Assembly (NCBI GenBank): GCA_009360345.1
Contig: SPDP01000002.1
Location: 682,001 to 746,000 of the forward strand
Source: Alcaligenaceae bacterium SAGV5
GTDB lineage: Bacteria > Pseudomonadota > Gammaproteobacteria > Burkholderiales > Burkholderiaceae_B
DNA: 64,000 nucleotides
Direction of reading: 5' to 3'
Shown here piece after piece: positions 54,561 to 64,000 of the stretch. Numbering within the stretch: the stretch's first letter is position 1; each line of letters opens with the position of its first letter. Under the pieces are notes generated by a model. That model was not told where the DNA came from, ran no database searches, and saw only the letters and a program-made list of their open reading frames with translations. Position numbers and translations under genes: made by a program.

Positions 54561-55325
54561 TCAGATCGAGACCCGGTTGGCGGACTCGTGCCAGGGAATC
54601 ATCACCTTGCGCAGCGAACCCACGGCGAAATACAGCGAGAAGCCGATGGCCGCCAGCAACAGCACGACGGCGAACAAGGTGTCGACCTCGAGCTCCTGCA
54701 GCTTGATGGTGGCCAGGTAGCCCAGGCCGCGCGTGCCGGCCACGAATTCGCCCACCACCGCGCCGATGATGGCCAGCACGATGGCCATTTCCATCCCGGT
54801 CAGGATGTAGGGCAGCGAACTGGGAACGACCAGCAGGCGAAAACGCCGGGACTGCGTGGCCCGCCCCACCGTGAACACCTCGGACAGGCCGCGGTCCACC
54901 GATTTCGCGCCCAGGTAGCTGTTGGCGAACACGGGGAAAAAGGCCAGCACCGCCGAGACGATGATCTTGGATTCCAGCCCGAAGCCGAACCACAGGATGA
55001 ACAACGGGATCAGCGCGACCTTGGGCGTGACCTGCAAGGCGATCACGAAGGGCTTGAACACGGTGTCGAGAATGGCGACGCGGCCCAGGAGCTGACCGAC
55101 GATGGTGCCGAACACGATGGCGAACAGGAAGCCCCCGAGGCATTCGGTCAGCGTAATGCCCAGGTGGTAATAGGTGTCCGTGGAACCGAGCAGACGGAAC
55201 AGGGCCACCACGACCAGTTCGGGCGCCGGCAGCACCAGCGGCGACACCTCGAAGAAATGCACGTATCCCTTCCAGATCAGGAAGAACGCCGCCACGGCGG
55301 ATACTTGTAGAGCGAGTCGTTTCAT
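54561..55325 (-). CDS. ABC transporter permease (SsuC/TauC type)
   Basis: A 254-residue inner-membrane permease with six hydrophobic segments. The EAA loop is recognisable in RRFRLLVVPSSLPYILTGMEMAIVLA. N-terminal positioning and length match nitrate/sulfonate/taurine-type permeases. It follows the ATPase gene by 6 bases. Confidence 0.92.
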   Translation of the reverse strand: MKRLALQVSAVAAFFLIWKGYVHFFEVSPLVLPAPELVVVALFRLLGSTDTYYHLGITLTECLGGFLFAIVFGTIVGQLLGRVAILDTVFKPFVIALQVTPKVALIPLFILWFGFGLESKIIVSAVLAFFPVFANSYLGAKSVDRGLSEVFTVGRATQSRRFRLLVVPSSLPYILTGMEMAIVLAIIGAVVGEFVAGTRGLGYLATIKLQELEVDTLFAVVLLLAAIGFSLYFAVGSLRKVMIPWHESANRVSI

Positions 55326-55331
55326 GTCGGG

Positions 55332-56138
55332 TCAGAGCTCCAGTTTTTTCCGGATATCGCTGCACAACTTGCCGAACTCGGGCGAACCGAGGGCTTCCGT
55401 GCGGGGACGCGGCAGGTCGATCTTGAATTCGGCCACCACGCGGCCGGGACGGGCCGACATCACGATCACGCGGTCGGCCAGGTGCACGGCCTCGCTGATC
55501 GAGTGGGTGATCAGCAGCGCGGCGAACCCCTGCTCGGTCCAGATGCGTTCGGTATCGGCGGTGATCTGCTCACGCGTGAGCGCATCCAGCGCGCCGAACG
55601 GCTCGTCCAGGAGCAGCAGCTCGGGATCGGTGAACAGCGCGCGCGCCACCGAGGCGCGCTGCTTCATGCCGCCCGACAGTTCGGCCGGACGACGCTTCTC
55701 GAACCCGGTCAGGCCGACCAGCTTGCACAACGCGCGCGCGCGGTCGACGTCGGCGGCCGAGGCCCGGCCCTGCATGAGCCGGGGCAGCATGATGTTCTGC
55801 TCGACGCTGAGCCAGGGCAGCAGGCGATGCTCCTGGAAAGCCACGCCCATGCGCGGCGCCTGGCCTTCCCGGCCCCAGTCGATCTTGCCCTGGGTGGGCT
55901 CTTCGAGGCCGCACAGGATGCGCAGCAGGGTCGACTTGCCGCAGCCCGACGGCCCGACGATGGCGACGAACTCGCCCGCGCCGATGGACTGGCGGATGCC
56001 TTCGAGGGCCTGGACCGTGCCCGACTTGGTTTCGAAGCGCTTGGACACGCCGTCCACGCGGACCACTGGTCCGCGGCCGGCGTCCAGGGCATGCACGTTA
56101 CCGGCCGGCGGTACCGCGCGCACGGCGTTGTCAGCCAT
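55332..56138 (-). CDS. ABC transporter ATP-binding protein (SsuB/TauB type)
   Basis: A 268-residue ATPase. Walker A is GPSGCGKST, the signature is LSGGMKQRAS, Walker B is LLLLDEPFGALD and the switch His is in LLITHSISEAV. The order matches the NitT/TauT family. It overlaps the binding-protein gene by 8 bases and powers uptake of a small anion. Confidence 0.95.
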   Translation of the reverse strand: MADNAVRAVPPAGNVHALDAGRGPVVRVDGVSKRFETKSGTVQALEGIRQSIGAGEFVAIVGPSGCGKSTLLRILCGLEEPTQGKIDWGREGQAPRMGVAFQEHRLLPWLSVEQNIMLPRLMQGRASAADVDRARALCKLVGLTGFEKRRPAELSGGMKQRASVARALFTDPELLLLDEPFGALDALTREQITADTERIWTEQGFAALLITHSISEAVHLADRVIVMSARPGRVVAEFKIDLPRPRTEALGSPEFGKLCSDIRKKLEL

Positions 56139-57147
56139 TGGCGGCCTCCCAGATGTCGTTGGTGTACAGCGGCTTGGTGGTCGGCTGCTTGAGCAGGCCG
56201 GCCTGGCGCAGCAGCGACTCGCCCTCGGTCCACTGCGCCTCGTTGCAGCGCAGGACCTGCCTGGGGTTCGCGGCCGCCCACAGCTCGCGGTTGGCGCGCA
56301 TGTCGGCCAGCGCGATCGGCGTGTTGTCCGATCCGGGGATGTCGTACTTGCCGCGCATCAGCGCCACGGCCTTCTGCAACGCCGCGTCGTCCATCGCGAT
56401 CAGTTCCTGGGCCGAGCGATAGGCCGCGCGCAGGAAAGCCACGTAGGCGTCCTTGTTGGCGGCCAGTTCGGCTTCCTCGGCCACGTACACCTGCCCCGGC
56501 ACGCCGTCATCCATCTGCATGGTCGAGACGGGGAAGTTCTGGGCGGTCAGGCGGATGGCCGAGCTGGCATTGCCCAGGAAGCCCTGCACACGCTTGGACT
56601 GGATCATGCCGAAGGAGGCGGCGGAGTCGGCCACCCGCTCGCGGCGCACCGACTTGGGATCGACCTTGGCACGCATCAGCATCAGGTCCAGCGTGGCTTC
56701 CATCGAGCCGCCCGCCGACTGCACTCCGATGGCCTTGCCCGCCAGGTCCTGCGGCGTGCGGATCGGGGCGTCCTTGGATGAGATCACCGCGAACGGCGAC
56801 CGCTGGGCGATGGTGGCGATGGCGATGACCGGCGCATTGCTGTTGACGCGCGCCATCATGTAGTTGGCGCCGCCGGTACGGCCGGTCTGCACCTGCTTGG
56901 CCGCGGTCAGCTGGACGACCTGGGCGGCGCCGCGTCCGGCCTCGACCTTCAGGTCCAGGCCTTCCTTGGCGAAGTAGCCGGCCACCGACGCATACAGCAC
57001 CGGCGAGAAGGCCAGCGAGAACGACGACGGCGTCAGGAAGGTCAGCTTGCCCTTGCCCTGGGCGTGCACCACGGACACCAGTCCCGGCAGCGGCAACAGC
57101 GTGGCGGCGGCGGCAGCGGCGCTGCCGAGGAATTCGCGACGTTTCAT
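56131..57147 (-). CDS. ABC transporter substrate-binding protein (NitT/TauT type)
   Basis: A 338-residue periplasmic binding protein with a twin-arginine-like leader (MKRREFLGSAAAAAATLLPLPG). The ligand domain contains the NMT1/SsuA-like segments FAKEGLDLKVEAGRGAAQ and LAGKAIGVQSAGGSMEA. Related family members bind sulfonates, nitrate, phthalate or pyrimidine precursors. It leads the four-gene operon. A 33-base inverted repeat lies about 106 bases upstream (57253-57285). The downstream FAD oxidase suggests a hydroxy-acid ligand. Confidence 0.91.
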   Translation of the reverse strand: MKRREFLGSAAAAAATLLPLPGLVSVVHAQGKGKLTFLTPSSFSLAFSPVLYASVAGYFAKEGLDLKVEAGRGAAQVVQLTAAKQVQTGRTGGANYMMARVNSNAPVIAIATIAQRSPFAVISSKDAPIRTPQDLAGKAIGVQSAGGSMEATLDLMLMRAKVDPKSVRRERVADSAASFGMIQSKRVQGFLGNASSAIRLTAQNFPVSTMQMDDGVPGQVYVAEEAELAANKDAYVAFLRAAYRSAQELIAMDDAALQKAVALMRGKYDIPGSDNTPIALADMRANRELWAAANPRQVLRCNEAQWTEGESLLRQAGLLKQPTTKPLYTNDIWEAANG

Positions 57148-57252
57148 GAAAGGACTCCAGTTGTGGCCACCGGCGATCGCGGCGGGCCCGGCATGGCGCG
57201 GGAAGCATCCCGCCGGCAAAGGATAGGAAGAAAACCGAATGATTCCGGTTTG

Positions 57253-57285
57253 TGCCACATATAAAACGATGATTTATATATGGCA
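57253..57285. promoter_or_regulatory. Inverted repeat, likely operator of the ABC-oxidase operon
   Basis: TGCCACATATAAA (57253-57265) and TTTATATATGGCA (57273-57285) pair at 12 of 13 positions around a 7-base centre. It is an AT-rich island in GC-rich DNA, upstream of the ABC operon and 152 bases before thiS. A smaller inverted repeat, AACCG...CGGTT, adjoins it at 57234-57251. The remaining gap to thiS shows no gene. Confidence 0.5.
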
Positions 57286-57436: not shown

Positions 57437-57637
57437 ATGAATATCGTATTGAACGGGGAACCGCGCACCATCGAGGCAGCCTCCTCGGTGGCCGATCTGA
57501 TCCAGGCGCTGGGCTACGCGGGCAAGCGCGTGGCCATCGAGCGCAATGGCGAAATCGTCCCGCGCAGCGCGCACCAGCACACCCTCATCGCCAACGGCGA
57601 CCGGCTCGAAATCGTCGTCGCCGTCGGCGGAGGCTAG
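57437..57637 (+). CDS. thiS: Sulfur carrier protein ThiS
   Basis: A 66-residue ubiquitin-like protein ending in VGGG. The C-terminal Gly-Gly tail is adenylated and thiocarboxylated to donate sulfur to the thiamine thiazole ring. The [12 protein letters not shown] start and [12 protein letters not shown] segment match ThiS. It normally precedes thiG, but here a catalase gene follows after only 7 bases, so it is separated from the rest of the thiazole genes. Confidence 0.88.
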
Positions 57638-57644
57638 GATCACG

Positions 57645-59096
57645 ATGACCATGACCACGTCCCACAGCACCACCAGCGCCGGCGCCCCCGCCCCCAGCGA
57701 CCGTAATTCGCTGACGGCGGGCAGCGACGGACCGCTGGTCCTGCACGATGTGCATTTCCTCGAACAGATGGCGCACTTCAACCGGGAAAAAGTCCCCGAG
57801 CGCCAGCCCCACGCGAAGGGCTCCGGCGCCTTCGGCGTCTTCGAGGCCACCGAGGACATCTCCCGCTACACCAAGGCCGCCCTGTTCCAGAAAGGCTGTA
57901 AGACCGAGATGCTGGCCCGGTTCTCCACGGTGGCCGGCGAATCCGGCAGCCCGGACACCTGGCGCGACGTGCGCGGCTTCTCGCTGAAGTTCTACACCAC
58001 CGAAGGCAACTACGATCTGGTCGGCAACAACACGCCCGTCTTCTTCGTACGCGATCCGATCAAGTTCCCCCATTTCATCCGCAGCCAGAAGCGCCTGCCC
58101 GACTCGGGCCTGCGCGACGCCCACATGCAGTGGGACTTCTGGACACACAATCCGGAGTCGGCGCACCAGGTCACCTACCTGATGGGCGATCGCGGCATCC
58201 CGCAGTCCTGGCGCCACATGAACGGCTTCGGGTCGCACACCTACATGTGGGTCAACGCGGCGGGCGAGAAATTCTGGGTCAAGTATCACTTCCACAACCA
58301 GCAGGGCGAAAAGAACCTGACCAACGAGGAAGCCGCCCGCATCGCCGGCCAGGACGCCGACTACCACCGGCGCGACCTGTTCGAGGCGATCGCGCGCGGG
58401 GAACATCCCAAGTGGGTGCTGTCGGTGCAGGTCATGCCGTATGCCGAGGCCAAGACTTACCGCTTCAACCCCTTCGACCTGACCAAGGTGTGGCCGCACA
58501 AGGACTATCCGCTGATCAAGGTCGGCGTGATGACCCTGAACCGCAACCCGGTCAACTTCTTCGCCGAGATCGAACAGGCCGCCTTCTCGCCCGGCAATAC
58601 CGTGCCGGGCATCGGCCTGTCGCCCGACAAGATGCTGCTGGGCCGCGCCTTCGCCTACAACGACGCCCATCGCGCCCGCATCGGCACCAACTTCCACCAG
58701 TTGCCCGTGAACCGTCCGAAAGTGCCGGTCAACACCTACATGTTCGACGGCCACATGGCCTATGAGCACGCCGGCAATGCCGCCACCTACGCGCCCAACA
58801 GCACGGGACGCGCCTGGGCCGACGGCGGCGCGGCGCAGGAAGAAAGCTGGGAGGTCGACACCAGCCTGGTCCGGGAAGCCTACAAGCTGCGCAAGGACGA
58901 CGACGACTTCGGCCAGGCCGGCGCGCTGGTGCGCGACGTCTTCGACGACGCGCAGCGCCAGCGGCTGGTCGATACCGTGGTGGGCGGGCTGAAATCCGGC
59001 GTGCGCTCGCCGGTGCTCGAGCGGGCGTTCGACTACTGGAAGCAGGTCGACGCCGACATCGGCCGCCGCATCGAGGCCCAGTACAAGGCGGGCTAG
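57645..59096 (+). CDS. Monofunctional haem catalase
   Basis: A 483-residue small-subunit catalase that dismutates hydrogen peroxide. The distal His is in [10 protein letters not shown], the distal Asn region is [17 protein letters not shown], and the proximal haem Tyr is in [20 protein letters not shown]. The N-terminal [16 protein letters not shown] matches bacterial KatA-like proteins. ATG 57645 is used; ATG 57651 is an in-frame alternative. It may protect the oxygenase- and flavoenzyme-rich metabolism around it. A GC hairpin at 59108-59134 follows. Confidence 0.95.
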
Positions 59097-59361: not shown

Positions 59362-60348
59362 ATGCTGACCAAGATGCCCGTCCAACTGCTGTGCTCCCTG
59401 GCCTTCGCCGCGGCCCTCCTGCCCGCGGCGAAGGCCGAAGTCAAGGCAGCCCCAACCTTCCCCGTCAAGACGGTCGAGATCACCGTGCCCTACGCCGTGG
59501 GCGGCGGGGTCGACATGCTGGCCCGGCTCATCGGCGACCAGCTCGGCAGGCTCGGGCAGTCCGTCATCGTCGAGAACAAGGCGGGCGCCGGCAGTACCGT
59601 AGGCACCCGCATCGTCGCGGGCAAGCCCAAGGACGGCCATTCCCTGCTGATGATGAACGATGCCTATTCCCTGGCGCCCGCCATCTACAAGAACCTTGGC
59701 TACGACCCCAAGAAGGATCTGGCGGCCGTGATCAATGTCGCCTACGCTCCCATGCTGGTGGTGGTGCCGGCGTCCTCGCGCTTCAAGACCCTGGCCGACG
59801 TGGTGGAGGTGGGCCGCCAGCCGGGCTCCAAGCTGTCGTACGGCTCCTGCGGCGCCGGGACCGACCCGCACCTGGCGGGCGAAATGATGAACATCGAGTT
59901 CAAGATGCACAACGTGCACGTTCCGTACAAAGGCTGTGGCCCCGCCCTGGTCGACGTCCTGGGCGGGCAGGTGGACCTGGCGATAGTCACCATCTCCGGC
60001 GCGCTGACCTACATTTCCTCGGGCAAGCTGCGCGCGCTGGCCATCACCTCCAGCGACCGCTCGAAGGCCGTGCCCGACGTGCCCACCGTGGCCGAGAGCG
60101 GCGCACCCGGCTTCAACCTCAGCCAATGGCAGGGGCTGGCGGTTCCCGGCGGCACGCCGGACAACGTCAAGACGGACATCTACAAGACGGTGTCGGCCAT
60201 CATGAAGACCGACGCCATGCGCAAGCGGCTCGAGGACCTGGGCTACACCACCGCGGACGAAGGCCCGGCCGCGTTCCAGAAAATCGTCAACGACGACATC
60301 GACCGTTTTGCCGCGCTGGCCAAGAAGATCGGCCTGAGCGCGGACTGA
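59362..60348 (+). CDS. Bug-family periplasmic substrate-binding protein
   Basis: A 328-residue Bug receptor. Signal MLTKMPVQLLCSLAFAAALLPAAKA precedes FPVKTVEITVPYAVGGGVDMLARLI; VIVENKAGAGSTVGTRIVA follows. ATG 59362 gives a proper signal peptide; the longer open frame upstream reads through the operator. It is first in the operon with the Pht5-like and molybdenum hydroxylase genes and probably binds the aromatic acid they process. Confidence 0.92.
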   Translation: MLTKMPVQLLCSLAFAAALLPAAKAEVKAAPTFPVKTVEITVPYAVGGGVDMLARLIGDQLGRLGQSVIVENKAGAGSTVGTRIVAGKPKDGHSLLMMNDAYSLAPAIYKNLGYDPKKDLAAVINVAYAPMLVVVPASSRFKTLADVVEVGRQPGSKLSYGSCGAGTDPHLAGEMMNIEFKMHNVHVPYKGCGPALVDVLGGQVDLAIVTISGALTYISSGKLRALAITSSDRSKAVPDVPTVAESGAPGFNLSQWQGLAVPGGTPDNVKTDIYKTVSAIMKTDAMRKRLEDLGYTTADEGPAAFQKIVNDDIDRFAALAKKIGLSAD

Positions 60349-60378
60349 GAATCCGAGCATCCACCAAAAGGAAAATCG

Positions 60379-61371
60379 ATGAACAAACTGAACATCAGTC
60401 TCTCCGTAGGCAACTACGACCGCACCCAGGCCCTGTTCGACGGCCGCGTGGCCATCGAGGGCTGCAACGTGCGCGCCGTGCCGCTGGAGCCTGAGGAGGC
60501 CTTCCACCGCGCCTTCCGCTACGAAGAGTTCGACGTGACGGAAATCTCGATGAGCAGCCACATGATGACCACGGCGCGCGGCGACAACAAGTACGTCGCG
60601 GTGCCCGCCTTCCTGTCGCGGGTCTTCCGCCAGTCGGGCATCTACGTGCGCACCGACCGCGGCATCCAGCGCCCGCAGGATCTCAAGGGCAAGACCATAG
60701 GCGTCCCCGAGTACCAGATCACCGCGAACGTCTGGATCCGCGGCATCCTCGAGGACGAATACGGCGTCAAGCCAGCCGACATCAAGTGGCGGCGCGGCGG
60801 CGTCGAGGAACCGGGGCGGGGCGAACGCGCGCCGATCGAGCTGGATCCGTCCATCGACCTGCGGCAGATCCCCGACGACAAGACCCTGTCGGGCATGCTG
60901 GAGTCCGGCGAGATCGACGGCTACATCGGCGCCCGCGCGCCGTCCTGCTTCCTGCGCGGCGCCCCCAATGTGGGCCGCCTGTTCGGCGATTACATCGACG
61001 CCGAAAAGGACTATTTCCGCCGCACCCGCATCTTCCCCATCATGCACATGGTGGGCATACGCAAGTCGCTGGTGGAAGAAAACCCATGGCTGCCGGTCAG
61101 CGTCTACAAGGCCTTCCTGAAGGCCAAGGCCCTGGCCGTCAAGGAGCTGGACGAGATCTGCCATCTGGCGGTCACCCTGCCCTGGATGGTCCACCACCAC
61201 AACGAGGCCAAGGCGCTGATGGGCGAGGACTACTGGCCCTACGGCCTGCCCGCCAACCATCACGTGATCGAGACCTTCGCGCGCTACCACCACGACCAGG
61301 GCCTGTCGCGCCGGCGGGTCGCGCCCGAGGAACTGTTCGCCGCCTCGGCCCTCGACCTGTCGAAGATCTGA
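60379..61371 (+). CDS. 4,5-dihydroxyphthalate decarboxylase (Pht5)-family protein
   Basis: A 330-residue protein of the Pht5 family, which has a periplasmic-binding-protein-like fold but acts in the cytoplasm. It has no signal peptide. Landmarks are LNISLSVGNYDRTQALFDGRV, LEPEEAFHRAFRYEEFDVTEIS and VTLPWMVHHHNEAKALMGEDYWPYG. The known member decarboxylates 4,5-dihydroxyphthalate to protocatechuate. AAAGGAAAA before ATG 60379 is an adequate ribosome site. Next to a molybdenum hydroxylase, it could decarboxylate a hydroxylated aromatic or pyridine carboxylate. Confidence 0.88.
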   Translation: MNKLNISLSVGNYDRTQALFDGRVAIEGCNVRAVPLEPEEAFHRAFRYEEFDVTEISMSSHMMTTARGDNKYVAVPAFLSRVFRQSGIYVRTDRGIQRPQDLKGKTIGVPEYQITANVWIRGILEDEYGVKPADIKWRRGGVEEPGRGERAPIELDPSIDLRQIPDDKTLSGMLESGEIDGYIGARAPSCFLRGAPNVGRLFGDYIDAEKDYFRRTRIFPIMHMVGIRKSLVEENPWLPVSVYKAFLKAKALAVKELDEICHLAVTLPWMVHHHNEAKALMGEDYWPYGLPANHHVIETFARYHHDQGLSRRRVAPEELFAASALDLSKI

Positions 61372-61378
61372 ACACGCC

Positions 61379-62242
61379 ATGAAAGCTCCCGCTGTCGACT
61401 ACGTGGCGCCGCGCAGCCTGGACGAGGCGCTGCAATGCCTGGCCGGCGCGGACAACGCGCGGGTGCTGGCGGGCGGCCAGTCGCTGATGGCCATGCTGAA
61501 CATGCGGTTCGCGTTCCCGGACTGCCTGGTGGACATCAATCGCATCCCGGAACTGGCCTACCTGCGCGACGAAGGCGACTCGGTCCGGATCGGCGCCATG
61601 ACCCGGCAGCGGGACGTCGAGTTCTCGGACATGGTGCGGGACCGGCTGCCCATCCTGCGCGAGGCGATCCTGAACGTCGGCCACCGGCAGACGCGCAACC
61701 GCGGCACCGTGGGCGGCAGCCTGTGCCAGCTCGACCCCTCGGCCGAGATCCCCACCATCGCCATGGCCCTGGACGCGCAGGTCCACGTGGCCAGCGCCAG
61801 CGGCACGCGCAGCCTGGCGATGGCGGATTTTCCCGCCGGCTACATGACGCCGGCGCTGGAGGCCGACGAAATGCTGGTGGGCGTGTCGATGCGCCCCTGG
61901 GACCCGGGACATGGCTGGAGCTTCCTGGAATTCTCGCGGCGGCACGGCGACTTCGCCATCGCCTCGGCCGCCGTGCTGCTGAGCTTCGGCGCCGACGCGC
62001 GGGTGGACCGCTGTTCCATCACCCTGGGCGGCGTATCGACGGCGCCCGTCCGCATGGCGCAGGCCGAGCAGGCCCTGCTGGGCACGAAAGCCGAGGCGGC
62101 GGACATCGAACGAACCGCCGCGCTGTGCGGCGCGGTGGAGGCCAGCTCCGACGCCTACGTGCCCGGCTGGTACCGCCAGCGGCTGGCGCGGGTGCTGGCC
62201 GGCCGCGCGATCACCCGCGCGCTCGAACGCGCAACAAGATGA
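61379..62242 (+). CDS. Molybdenum hydroxylase FAD subunit (CoxM/CutM type)
   Basis: A 287-residue FAD-binding medium subunit of the xanthine dehydrogenase/CO dehydrogenase family. The FAD motifs are VLAGGQSLMAMLNMRFA and NRGTVGGSLCQLDPSAEIPT, in the usual positions. It begins 7 bases after the Pht5-like gene and overlaps the iron-sulfur subunit gene by 4 bases. It passes electrons from the iron-sulfur clusters to an acceptor. Confidence 0.94.
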   Translation: MKAPAVDYVAPRSLDEALQCLAGADNARVLAGGQSLMAMLNMRFAFPDCLVDINRIPELAYLRDEGDSVRIGAMTRQRDVEFSDMVRDRLPILREAILNVGHRQTRNRGTVGGSLCQLDPSAEIPTIAMALDAQVHVASASGTRSLAMADFPAGYMTPALEADEMLVGVSMRPWDPGHGWSFLEFSRRHGDFAIASAAVLLSFGADARVDRCSITLGGVSTAPVRMAQAEQALLGTKAEAADIERTAALCGAVEASSDAYVPGWYRQRLARVLAGRAITRALERATR

Positions 62243-62757
62243 CATCCACCATGGCAACCACGCAAAACTCCCGCCCCGTGCATCTGTCCGTCAACGGCAA
62301 GCCTTGCCAGGGCATGGCGGAGCCCCGCCTGCACCTGGCCGACTTCCTGCGCGGCGAACTGAAGCTGACCGGCACCCACGTGGGTTGCGAGCACGGGGTC
62401 TGCGGCGCCTGTACGGTGCTGGTGGACGGCGTCTCTGCCCGCAGCTGCCTGATGCTGGCGGTCCAGGGCGAGGGCTGCGCCATCACCACCATCGAAGGCC
62501 TGGCCGCCAGCGAGCACGACACGCATCCGCTGCAGCAGGCCTTCCATGAATTGCACGCGCTGCAATGCGGCTTCTGCACCCCGGGCATCCTGATGTCGCT
62601 GTCCGAGCTGCTGGCCGCCAACCCCGACCCCGACGAGGACGCCGTGCGCGACGTGCTGTCCGGCCACCTGTGCCGTTGCACGGGCTACCAGAACATCGTG
62701 GCGGCGGCGCTGCGCGCCGCGCAGATCCTGCGTGAACGAGGCGGCCATGCACGCTGA
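62239..62757 (+). CDS. Molybdenum hydroxylase [2Fe-2S] subunit (CoxS/CutS type)
   Basis: A 172-residue subunit with two [2Fe-2S] clusters. The plant-type cluster is in GCEHGVCGACTVLVDG with a later Cys in SCLML; the second is in CGFCTPG and CRCTGYQ. ATG 62239 overlaps the FAD-subunit stop (ATGA), and its own stop overlaps the large-subunit start by 11 bases. It links the molybdenum centre to FAD. Confidence 0.95.
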   Translation: MTSTMATTQNSRPVHLSVNGKPCQGMAEPRLHLADFLRGELKLTGTHVGCEHGVCGACTVLVDGVSARSCLMLAVQGEGCAITTIEGLAASEHDTHPLQQAFHELHALQCGFCTPGILMSLSELLAANPDPDEDAVRDVLSGHLCRCTGYQNIVAAALRAAQILRERGGHAR

Positions 62758-64000
62758 GCGCCAACTGACCGCCATCCCCGGCATGGGCGCGAGTCCCGGC
62801 CGCATCGAGGACGATACGCTGCTGCGGGGCAAGGCCTGCTTCCTGGACGACGTCCCCGTCCCCGATGCGCTGCACGCCTGCTTCGTGCGCAGCCCGCATG
62901 CCCACGCGCGGCTGCACGGGGTGGACGCGGGCCAGGCCCGCGCCATGCCCGGCGTCGTCGCGGTCTATACCCGCCAGGACCTGTTCGGGCACGTCACCTC
63001 GTGGCGCATGCCGTTGGGCTTTCCGCTCGCGGCCCTGCCCGAGAACACCACGCCGTTCGCGCTGGCCGGCGACGAGGTCGCCTTCGTGGGCGAGGCCTAC
63101 GCGGTAGTGGTGGCCCGGACGCGGCACGAGGCCGAGGACGCCGCGGCCGCCGTGCTGGCGGAGTTCGAGGTCCTGCCCGCCATCGCGGACTGCCGGCGGG
63201 CCGTGCACGACGATGCCCCCCGGGTGCGCACCGAACTGGCCAGCAACGTGCTGCAGGACTACACCCTCGCCTATGGCGACTGCGACGCCGCCTTCGCCCG
63301 TGCCGACATCGTGCTGGACGACGACTTCCGGGTCCATCGCGGCTGCGGCCATCCCATGGAAGGGCGCGGCGTGGTAGCCATGCCCGACCCCGCCACCGGC
63401 ATGCTGACCGTCTGGTCCTCGACCCAGATGGCGCACGAACTGCACTACACCATCGCCCACATGCTGGACCAGCCCGAGGACCGGTTGCGGGTGATCACGC
63501 CGGACGTGGGCGGCGGCTTCGGCGCCAAATTCATGATCTACCCCGAGGAAATCGTGGTGCCGGCCGTCGCCCGAGCGCTGGACCGCCCGGTCAAGTGGGT
63601 GGAGGACCGCCGCGAAAACTTCCTGACCACCATCCAGGAGCGCGACCAGTTCTGGCGCATCTCGGTGGCCGCCGACCGCGACGGCCGCGTGCTCGGCGTG
63701 CGGGGCGGCTTCGTCCACGACCACGGCGCCTACACGCCCCAGGGCACCAACGTCCCGTACAACGCCGCCTCGTCCATGACCGGGCCCTACGTCGTGCCGG
63801 CTTTCTCGCTGCGCGTGCAGGTGGCCTATACCAACAAGGTGCCGGTCGCGACCATACGCGGGGCCGGCTATCCGCAAGCGGCCTTCGTCATGGAACGCAT
63901 GATGGACCGGCTGGCGTCCACCGCGGGCATCGACCGGCTCGAATGCCGCCGGCGCAATCTCATACCCCCGGAGAAGATTCCCTACACCAAGCCGCTCAAG
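62747..64000 (+). CDS. Molybdenum hydroxylase large subunit (CoxL/XdhB-type), 3' partial
   Basis: The first 418 residues of the molybdopterin-binding subunit; the gene continues past the window. GRIEDDTLLRGKACFLDDV is the usual start, and the molybdopterin motif VGGGFGAKF is visible near residue 260. ATIRGAGYPQAAFVMER follows where CO dehydrogenase has its AYRCSFR active loop, which is not seen in this part. It is therefore a carbon hydroxylase of the wider family (aromatic or N-heterocyclic acid) rather than CO dehydrogenase, as the Pht5-like and Bug genes also suggest. Confidence 0.93.
   Translation, partial: MHAERQLTAIPGMGASPGRIEDDTLLRGKACFLDDVPVPDALHACFVRSPHAHARLHGVDAGQARAMPGVVAVYTRQDLFGHVTSWRMPLGFPLAALPENTTPFALAGDEVAFVGEAYAVVVARTRHEAEDAAAAVLAEFEVLPAIADCRRAVHDDAPRVRTELASNVLQDYTLAYGDCDAAFARADIVLDDDFRVHRGCGHPMEGRGVVAMPDPATGMLTVWSSTQMAHELHYTIAHMLDQPEDRLRVITPDVGGGFGAKFMIYPEEIVVPAVARALDRPVKWVEDRRENFLTTIQERDQFWRISVAADRDGRVLGVRGGFVHDHGAYTPQGTNVPYNAASSMTGPYVVPAFSLRVQVAYTNKVPVATIRGAGYPQAAFVMERMMDRLASTAGIDRLECRRRNLIPPEKIPYTKPLK

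Follow-up and report, generated by a model that had tools for sequence, protein, structure and literature searches.

A gene cluster at the right-hand end of a 64,000-nucleotide stretch of the Alcaligenaceae bacterium SAGV5 genome (contig SPDP01000002.1, positions 682,001–746,000; here the window, G000:C9:682001-746000, with G000 denoting the window's genome) is probably, judging from its sequence, an operon for the catabolism of quinolinate, in which a three-subunit molybdenum hydroxylase (CoxMSL) and a protein resembling the decarboxylase Pht5 (Pht5-like) would provide two steps that feed into the picolinate (pic) route. Quinolinate, which is neurotoxic, arises in the kynurenine pathway of tryptophan breakdown and is a precursor of nicotinamide adenine dinucleotide (NAD).

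Five genes are collinear on the + strand at this end of the window: tctC (59,362–60,348), encoding a 328-aa Bug/TctC periplasmic receptor (Pfam TctC, E 1.1e-65); the pht5-like gene (60,379–61,371; 330 aa, 37.5 kDa; PDB 9jp7, E 2.5e-106); coxM (61,379–62,242) for the flavin adenine dinucleotide (FAD) subunit (FAD_binding_5, E 2e-46; CO_deh_flav_C, E 2e-17); coxS (62,239–62,757) for the 2×[2Fe-2S] subunit (Fer2_2, E 1e-31, and Fer2; two cysteine motifs); and coxL (62,747–65,122, cut by the window at 64,000) for the molybdopterin subunit (MoCoBD_1, E 5e-81). The close packing of the pht5-like gene with CoxMSL-type genes and a Bug receptor was already reported in a preliminary description of this DNA and is borne out here, including the gap of 7 bases between pht5-like and coxM and the ATGA overlap of coxM and coxS; coxS and coxL overlap as well. 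With domains for FAD, 2×[2Fe-2S] and molybdopterin on three subunits and the GxKGxGE motif (GVKGIGE in CoxL), CoxMSL belongs to the xanthine oxidase family.

The window ends inside the operon, which continues on the same strand in two stretches covering the DNA beyond it, L008 (window coordinate = L008 + 54,000; coxL ends at L008 11,122) and L121. Reading the rest of the operon, a step proposed in the preliminary description, revealed pic genes after coxL. coxG is followed by genes for a Rieske ferredoxin, a reductase and Rieske oxygenase alpha and beta subunits (together the four-component PicB), an amidohydrolase-type decarboxylase (PicC), maleate isomerase (PicG), deformylase (PicE), 2,5-dihydroxypyridine dioxygenase (PicD) and an isochorismatase-type amidohydrolase (PicF), with a MarR regulator gene as the last of the operon; PicB to PicG are all present and collinear in L008 and L121. 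PicC is closest to gamma-resorcylate decarboxylases. PicD, which gave no Pfam or NCBIfam match, was identified by PDB sequence search (best match 2,5-dihydroxypyridine 5,6-dioxygenase, E 2e-120), and the same search matched PicE to a deformylase (2e-89), PicG to maleate cis-trans isomerase (2e-112) and PicF to isochorismatase-type enzymes (2e-95). For the pic cluster known from Alcaligenes faecalis JQ135 and Bordetella bronchiseptica RB50, the part of PMC10142695 at hand gives four genes for PicB and, in RB50, the order PicC, PicG, PicE, PicD, PicF, and its reference list gives picR as a MarR repressor. The window operon has the same four-gene PicB and, after PicC, the same PicG-PicE-PicD-PicF order as RB50, and a MarR gene closes it. 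By this order and the matches of the downstream genes, the operon ends in the established picolinate pathway, which leads from 6-hydroxypicolinate to fumarate. The picA position, however, is held by another molybdenum hydroxylase together with the Pht5-like decarboxylase and Bug receptor, and the hydroxylase genes beside the oxygenase genes are ordered M-S-L-G rather than L-M-S-G as in canonical pic clusters. PicA is named here by position in the cluster, not by assay, and PicB and PicC by family, position and the RB50 paper.

Two changes convert quinolinate to 6-hydroxypicolinate, the gain of one hydroxyl from water at C6 and the removal of the carboxylate at C3, and the C6 hydroxyl is para to the leaving C3 carboxylate, as in the Pht5 substrate 4,5-dihydroxyphthalate, a 1,2-dicarboxylate. 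In the route that we propose from gene content, gene order, protein families and co-occurrence, with substrate, regiochemistry and order of steps inferred, the Bug receptor would capture quinolinate; CoxMSL, aided by CoxG, would place a hydroxyl from water on C6 to give 6-hydroxyquinolinate; and the Pht5-like enzyme would strip the C3 carboxylate from this, leaving 6-hydroxypicolinate. PicB would then form 3,6-dihydroxypicolinate, PicC would decarboxylate it to 2,5-dihydroxypyridine, and PicD, PicE, PicF and PicG would carry the latter to fumarate. Hydroxylation using water followed by decarboxylation of an aromatic or pyridine carboxylate had been suggested from the window; the operon fits such a sequence of steps, and a pyridine is indicated by the 2,5-dihydroxypyridine dioxygenase encoded downstream together with its associated enzymes. 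A purified enzyme of Alcaligenes sp. UK21 is described in a review (PMC6644310) as decarboxylating 6-hydroxyquinolinate to 6-hydroxypicolinate and as somewhat similar to phthalate decarboxylases, with no cofactor reported for it, and the title of Uchida 2003, taken from a reference list, names quinolinate dehydrogenase beside the UK21 decarboxylase. The reactions proposed here are the same, the likeness of the window cluster being to the published description of the UK21 enzymes. Quinolinate is favored as substrate because the UK21 steps match and because Bug27, a quinolinate binder, adjoins the tctC-pht5-cox module in another genome (G092, Bordetella-like). No genes for the quinolinate-degrading enzymes reported in 2003, and no quinolinate gene cluster, were found in the open-access literature searched.

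The Pht5-like protein has its closest named matches in Pigmentiphaga (99% identity) and is ~50% identical to 9jp7, the 4,5-dihydroxyphthalate decarboxylase (Pht5) of Comamonas testosteroni KF-1, with which it has fold and length in common; its AlphaFold model (pLDDT, a confidence score, of 93) aligns with 9jp7 at Z 42.7 and a root-mean-square deviation of 1.8 over 326 residues. Forty residues, including Y13, D14, R15, E40, R44, E55, R81, R84, E111, Q113, W119, R121, H223 and W286, are invariant in 98 aligned rows that include 9jp7, a count made without the four most distant rows, which keep 35–39 of the 40. The Pht5-like proteins of the module stand apart from Pht5. In a tree of 102 rows (with L008, the same as the window row, near-copies L091–L109, L127, L129, L134, L135, L139 and L141, fragment L086 and exact duplicates excluded), the 21 module rows form one clade (100/100), separate from ten phthalate-partnered rows plus 9jp7, and 28 positions are fixed for one residue in the 21 rows of the module clade and for another in the 11 rows of the phthalate set. 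The module (QUI) label was set by at least 79% identity to the window protein, which in part builds in the single clade but not its separation from the rows linked to phthalate; the latter do not themselves form one clade (four changes on the tree). Partners also differ, being Cox and pic genes here versus phthalate dioxygenase and dihydrodiol dehydrogenase for Pht5, and none of the 20 loci with ≥79% identity has a homolog of the genes for the latter two (pht3/pht4) next to it.

Patterns from the window Pht5-like protein found 139 relatives, of which 80 loci were kept, 20 of them named close loci (L011–L029 and L082; Pht5-like protein at least 79% identical). A TctC gene lies within 700 bases upstream in 19 of the 20, and Cox genes within 3 kb downstream in 18; the latter also holds for 19 of the 60 more distant loci, giving 37 of 80 overall, while phthalate genes flank one of the 80. 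Cox is therefore the commoner partner near the Pht5-like protein, and the earlier statement that Pht5 proteins usually accompany phthalate dioxygenases needs care across this wider set. PicB-alpha, PicC or PicD was present within the fetched stretches of 12 of the 20 close loci. Among 200 genomes of the family, the Pht5-like protein (≥80%) and CoxL (≥66%) occur in exactly the same 18, and PicC (≥62%, E <1e-100) and PicB-alpha (≥74%) likewise coincide fully, in 45; every genome of the first set has PicC and PicB-alpha, versus 27 of the 182 others (Fisher p 9e-14, uncorrected for kinship and descriptive only). The loci of this sample at ≥80% (L091–L108) have TctC and CoxM matches in 18 of 18. 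Ten genomes reached via the named close loci, leaving out those of Pigmentiphaga, Alcaligenes and B. ansorpii, have PicB-alpha (≥76%) in nine cases and PicC (≥59%) in seven. The module is also present in the named Alcaligenes loci L023, L025 and L082 and in five of at least nine genus-g2 genomes of the family sample, and in G097, G136, G068, G092 and G047 tctC-pht5-coxM-S-L-G is separate from the pic cluster. A PicA-type large subunit (≥64% to the L126 copy) accompanies it in 12 of the 18 module genomes, and the module is therefore not simply a stand-in for PicA.

The window TctC protein, the N-terminus of which resembles a signal peptide by eye, has as its best PDB sequence match 2qpq, Bug27 of Bordetella pertussis (E 1.4e-107, 54% identity); in G092, the TctC protein adjoining the module agrees with Bug27 at every one of the 298 residues compared. 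According to the part of a 2024 paper at hand (PMC11452294), Bug27 binds quinolinate with a dissociation constant of 136 nM, in comparison with which earlier values for nicotinate, nicotinamide and citrate are about threefold weaker, and catabolic neighbors are not mentioned in that part. Five of the 11 pocket positions compared, which derive from residues named by docking for the Bug27/Bug69 quinolinate receptors, are as in Bug27 in the window receptor (G21, N72, C136, C165 and T183), in a comparison where the published numbers of three residues do not map exactly. Receptors beside the module are of two kinds. Bug27-type receptors (eight rows: L018, L022, L023, L025, L027, L082, L139 and L141; 65–100% to Bug27) keep all 11 positions in six cases and change only N227 in the other two (L022 and L141), while window-type receptors (15 rows, 46–55% to Bug27) keep the glycine, N72, both cysteines and T183, with others changed. 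The link from Bug27 to quinolinate therefore reaches the window receptor only via shared neighbors. At the G092 locus itself (L139, G092:C1:3285000-3304999), in a genome of 4.04 Mb, the coxM of the module is broken by a transposase-like gene, named by eye; the quinolinate route has probably been lost there, though the Bug27-identical protein remains.

Several observations weigh against a quinolinate operon of this kind. Two of the 20 close loci have no Cox genes. L028 is without TctC and CoxMSL, and no PicC was found in its genome (G517). In L021, TctC and the pht5-like gene are followed by 990 bases with no Cox gene, and no PicC, close PicB-alpha or close CoxL was found in its genome (G513). 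An order-level sample says little about co-occurrence, with two of 320 genomes having a Pht5-like protein at E ≤1e-165, the window's own and G250, which by coordinates is the L021 genome and gave no PicC or CoxL match at the thresholds used. G512, the genome of L020, has PicB-alpha and no close PicC. On the receptor side, the authors of the Bug27 study, in the part at hand, note orthologs beside nadC and phnN and favor NAD salvage (PMC11452294), and five other ligands are reported for Bug27 at below 1 µM (nicotinate, nicotinamide, citrate, benzoate and quinaldate; PMC5812351). The window receptor changes six of the 11 pocket positions (F16Y, T22V, S73D, S74A, Q142P and N227S) and may therefore bind something related. 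Finally, no close PicA was found in G000 (best match 41%, five of 27 candidates scored), and without one CoxMSL there might also serve picolinate.

The same logic could apply to another pyridine dicarboxylate, e.g. pyridine-2,5-dicarboxylate, brought to 6-hydroxypicolinate or 3,6-dihydroxypicolinate, since by their chemistry other dicarboxylates could reach the pic route through the same two kinds of step; the departures of the window receptor from the Bug27 pocket lean this way, whereas Bug27 beside the same module in another genome, the UK21 biochemistry, which concerns quinolinate, and the 1,2-dicarboxylate form of the known Pht5 substrate, with its hydroxyl para to the leaving group, speak for quinolinate, and we consider a different substrate rather unlikely. 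Still less probable is that the cluster of the window genome is a picolinate operon with CoxMSL in place of PicA and the pht5-like gene as an accessory. Every later pic gene does sit in the operon, and a close PicA is missing (best ≤49%) from G000 and five close relatives, but in 18 of the 20 named loci Cox genes accompany the pht5-like gene, which in several genomes with a PicA-type large subunit is located away from the pic cluster. That CoxMSL is PicA itself was rejected on two grounds: CoxL has 31–34% identity to its counterpart in the picA position, beside the oxygenase genes, of the canonical clusters in G097, G136, G068, G118, G092 and G005 (35% to a cut copy in G047), and the best PicA match among the candidates scored in the window genome reaches 41%.

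Two further explanations concern the nature of the proteins. Pfam yields weak matches to substrate-binding families alone for the Pht5-like protein, and many database records name such proteins ATP-binding cassette (ABC) substrate-binding proteins, as would suit a non-enzymatic component of an ABC-type system. Its N-terminus shows no signal peptide by eye, however, its 50% identity and Z of 42.7 to a decarboxylase compare with Z ≤19.2 for the other structure matches listed, which share the fold and include enzymes as well as binding proteins, and the 40 invariant positions are common to it and the phthalate-pathway decarboxylase. In view of its fold, its clade and its N-terminus, a non-enzymatic binding role was rejected and seems very improbable, and the Pht5-like protein is probably a cytoplasmic, cofactor-free enzyme. 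The top NCBIfam match of CoxL is named carbon monoxide dehydrogenase, which could make CoxMSL an enzyme unrelated to the pht5-like gene; all NCBIfam scores are below the curated cut-offs, though, and the loop AYxCSFR, which we take to be the active-site loop of form I carbon monoxide dehydrogenase, was looked for in CoxL and not found. On these two grounds that identity was rejected, and with the operon context also against it we give it hardly any credence. The preliminary description had named such a loop, and grouping of the Pht5-like protein with non-enzymatic binding proteins, as findings that would undo its proposal; CoxL is without the former, and tree and fold place the Pht5-like protein with 4,5-dihydroxyphthalate decarboxylase.

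Further pht5-like genes are present in the window genome, two of them belonging to a further pht5-coxMSL cluster that occurs in two almost identical copies (L009 and L010; G000:C9, ~845–850 kb and ~952–957 kb). Each has a pht5-like gene (63%) and CoxMSL with a LysR regulator and aspartate dehydrogenase; the copies are in opposite orientation, with one match of 13,958 bases at 99.99%, and may reflect either true duplication or an error of assembly. L122 (G000:C8:1025000-1044999) includes a pht5-like gene (65%), TctC, Rieske alpha and beta subunits and relatives of PicC, PicD and PicF, with no Cox-type match in the stretch and with a coenzyme A-transferase, a thiamine pyrophosphate enzyme and aldehyde dehydrogenase nearby, perhaps representing another pyridine acid route. 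In Burkholderia, the pht5-like gene (79%) and picB-type genes of L028 lie among frames resembling transposases by eye. Phthalate clusters on plasmids of Polaromonas naphthalenivorans CJ2 and Massilia sp. WG5 (L144 and L147) carry a copy of nadC (quinolinate phosphoribosyltransferase), which fits phthalate as a quinolinate look-alike. In the window, a catalase-like frame (57,546–59,096, + strand) is directly upstream of the operon, preceded by an ABC-transporter-like set (54,561–57,258, − strand), both recognized by reading translations.

On balance we lean towards the view that a Pht5-type, cofactor-free pyridine decarboxylase, its own molybdenum hydroxylase and a quinolinate receptor make up a movable front-end module into the picolinate pathway, supplying genes for the two UK21 activities and a catabolic role for Bug27. 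The cluster offers candidate genes for these activities, reported about twenty years ago, and the module places Bug27, linked in print to NAD salvage, in the context of a catabolic operon. With a decarboxylase family named for phthalate found next to molybdenum hydroxylases, many genes now recorded as encoding an "ABC substrate-binding protein" could be re-annotated in a testable way. If the proposal is true, the Pht5–Cox neighbors among the more distant loci (19 of 60) would represent a general strategy of water-derived hydroxylation and decarboxylation for various aromatic dicarboxylates.

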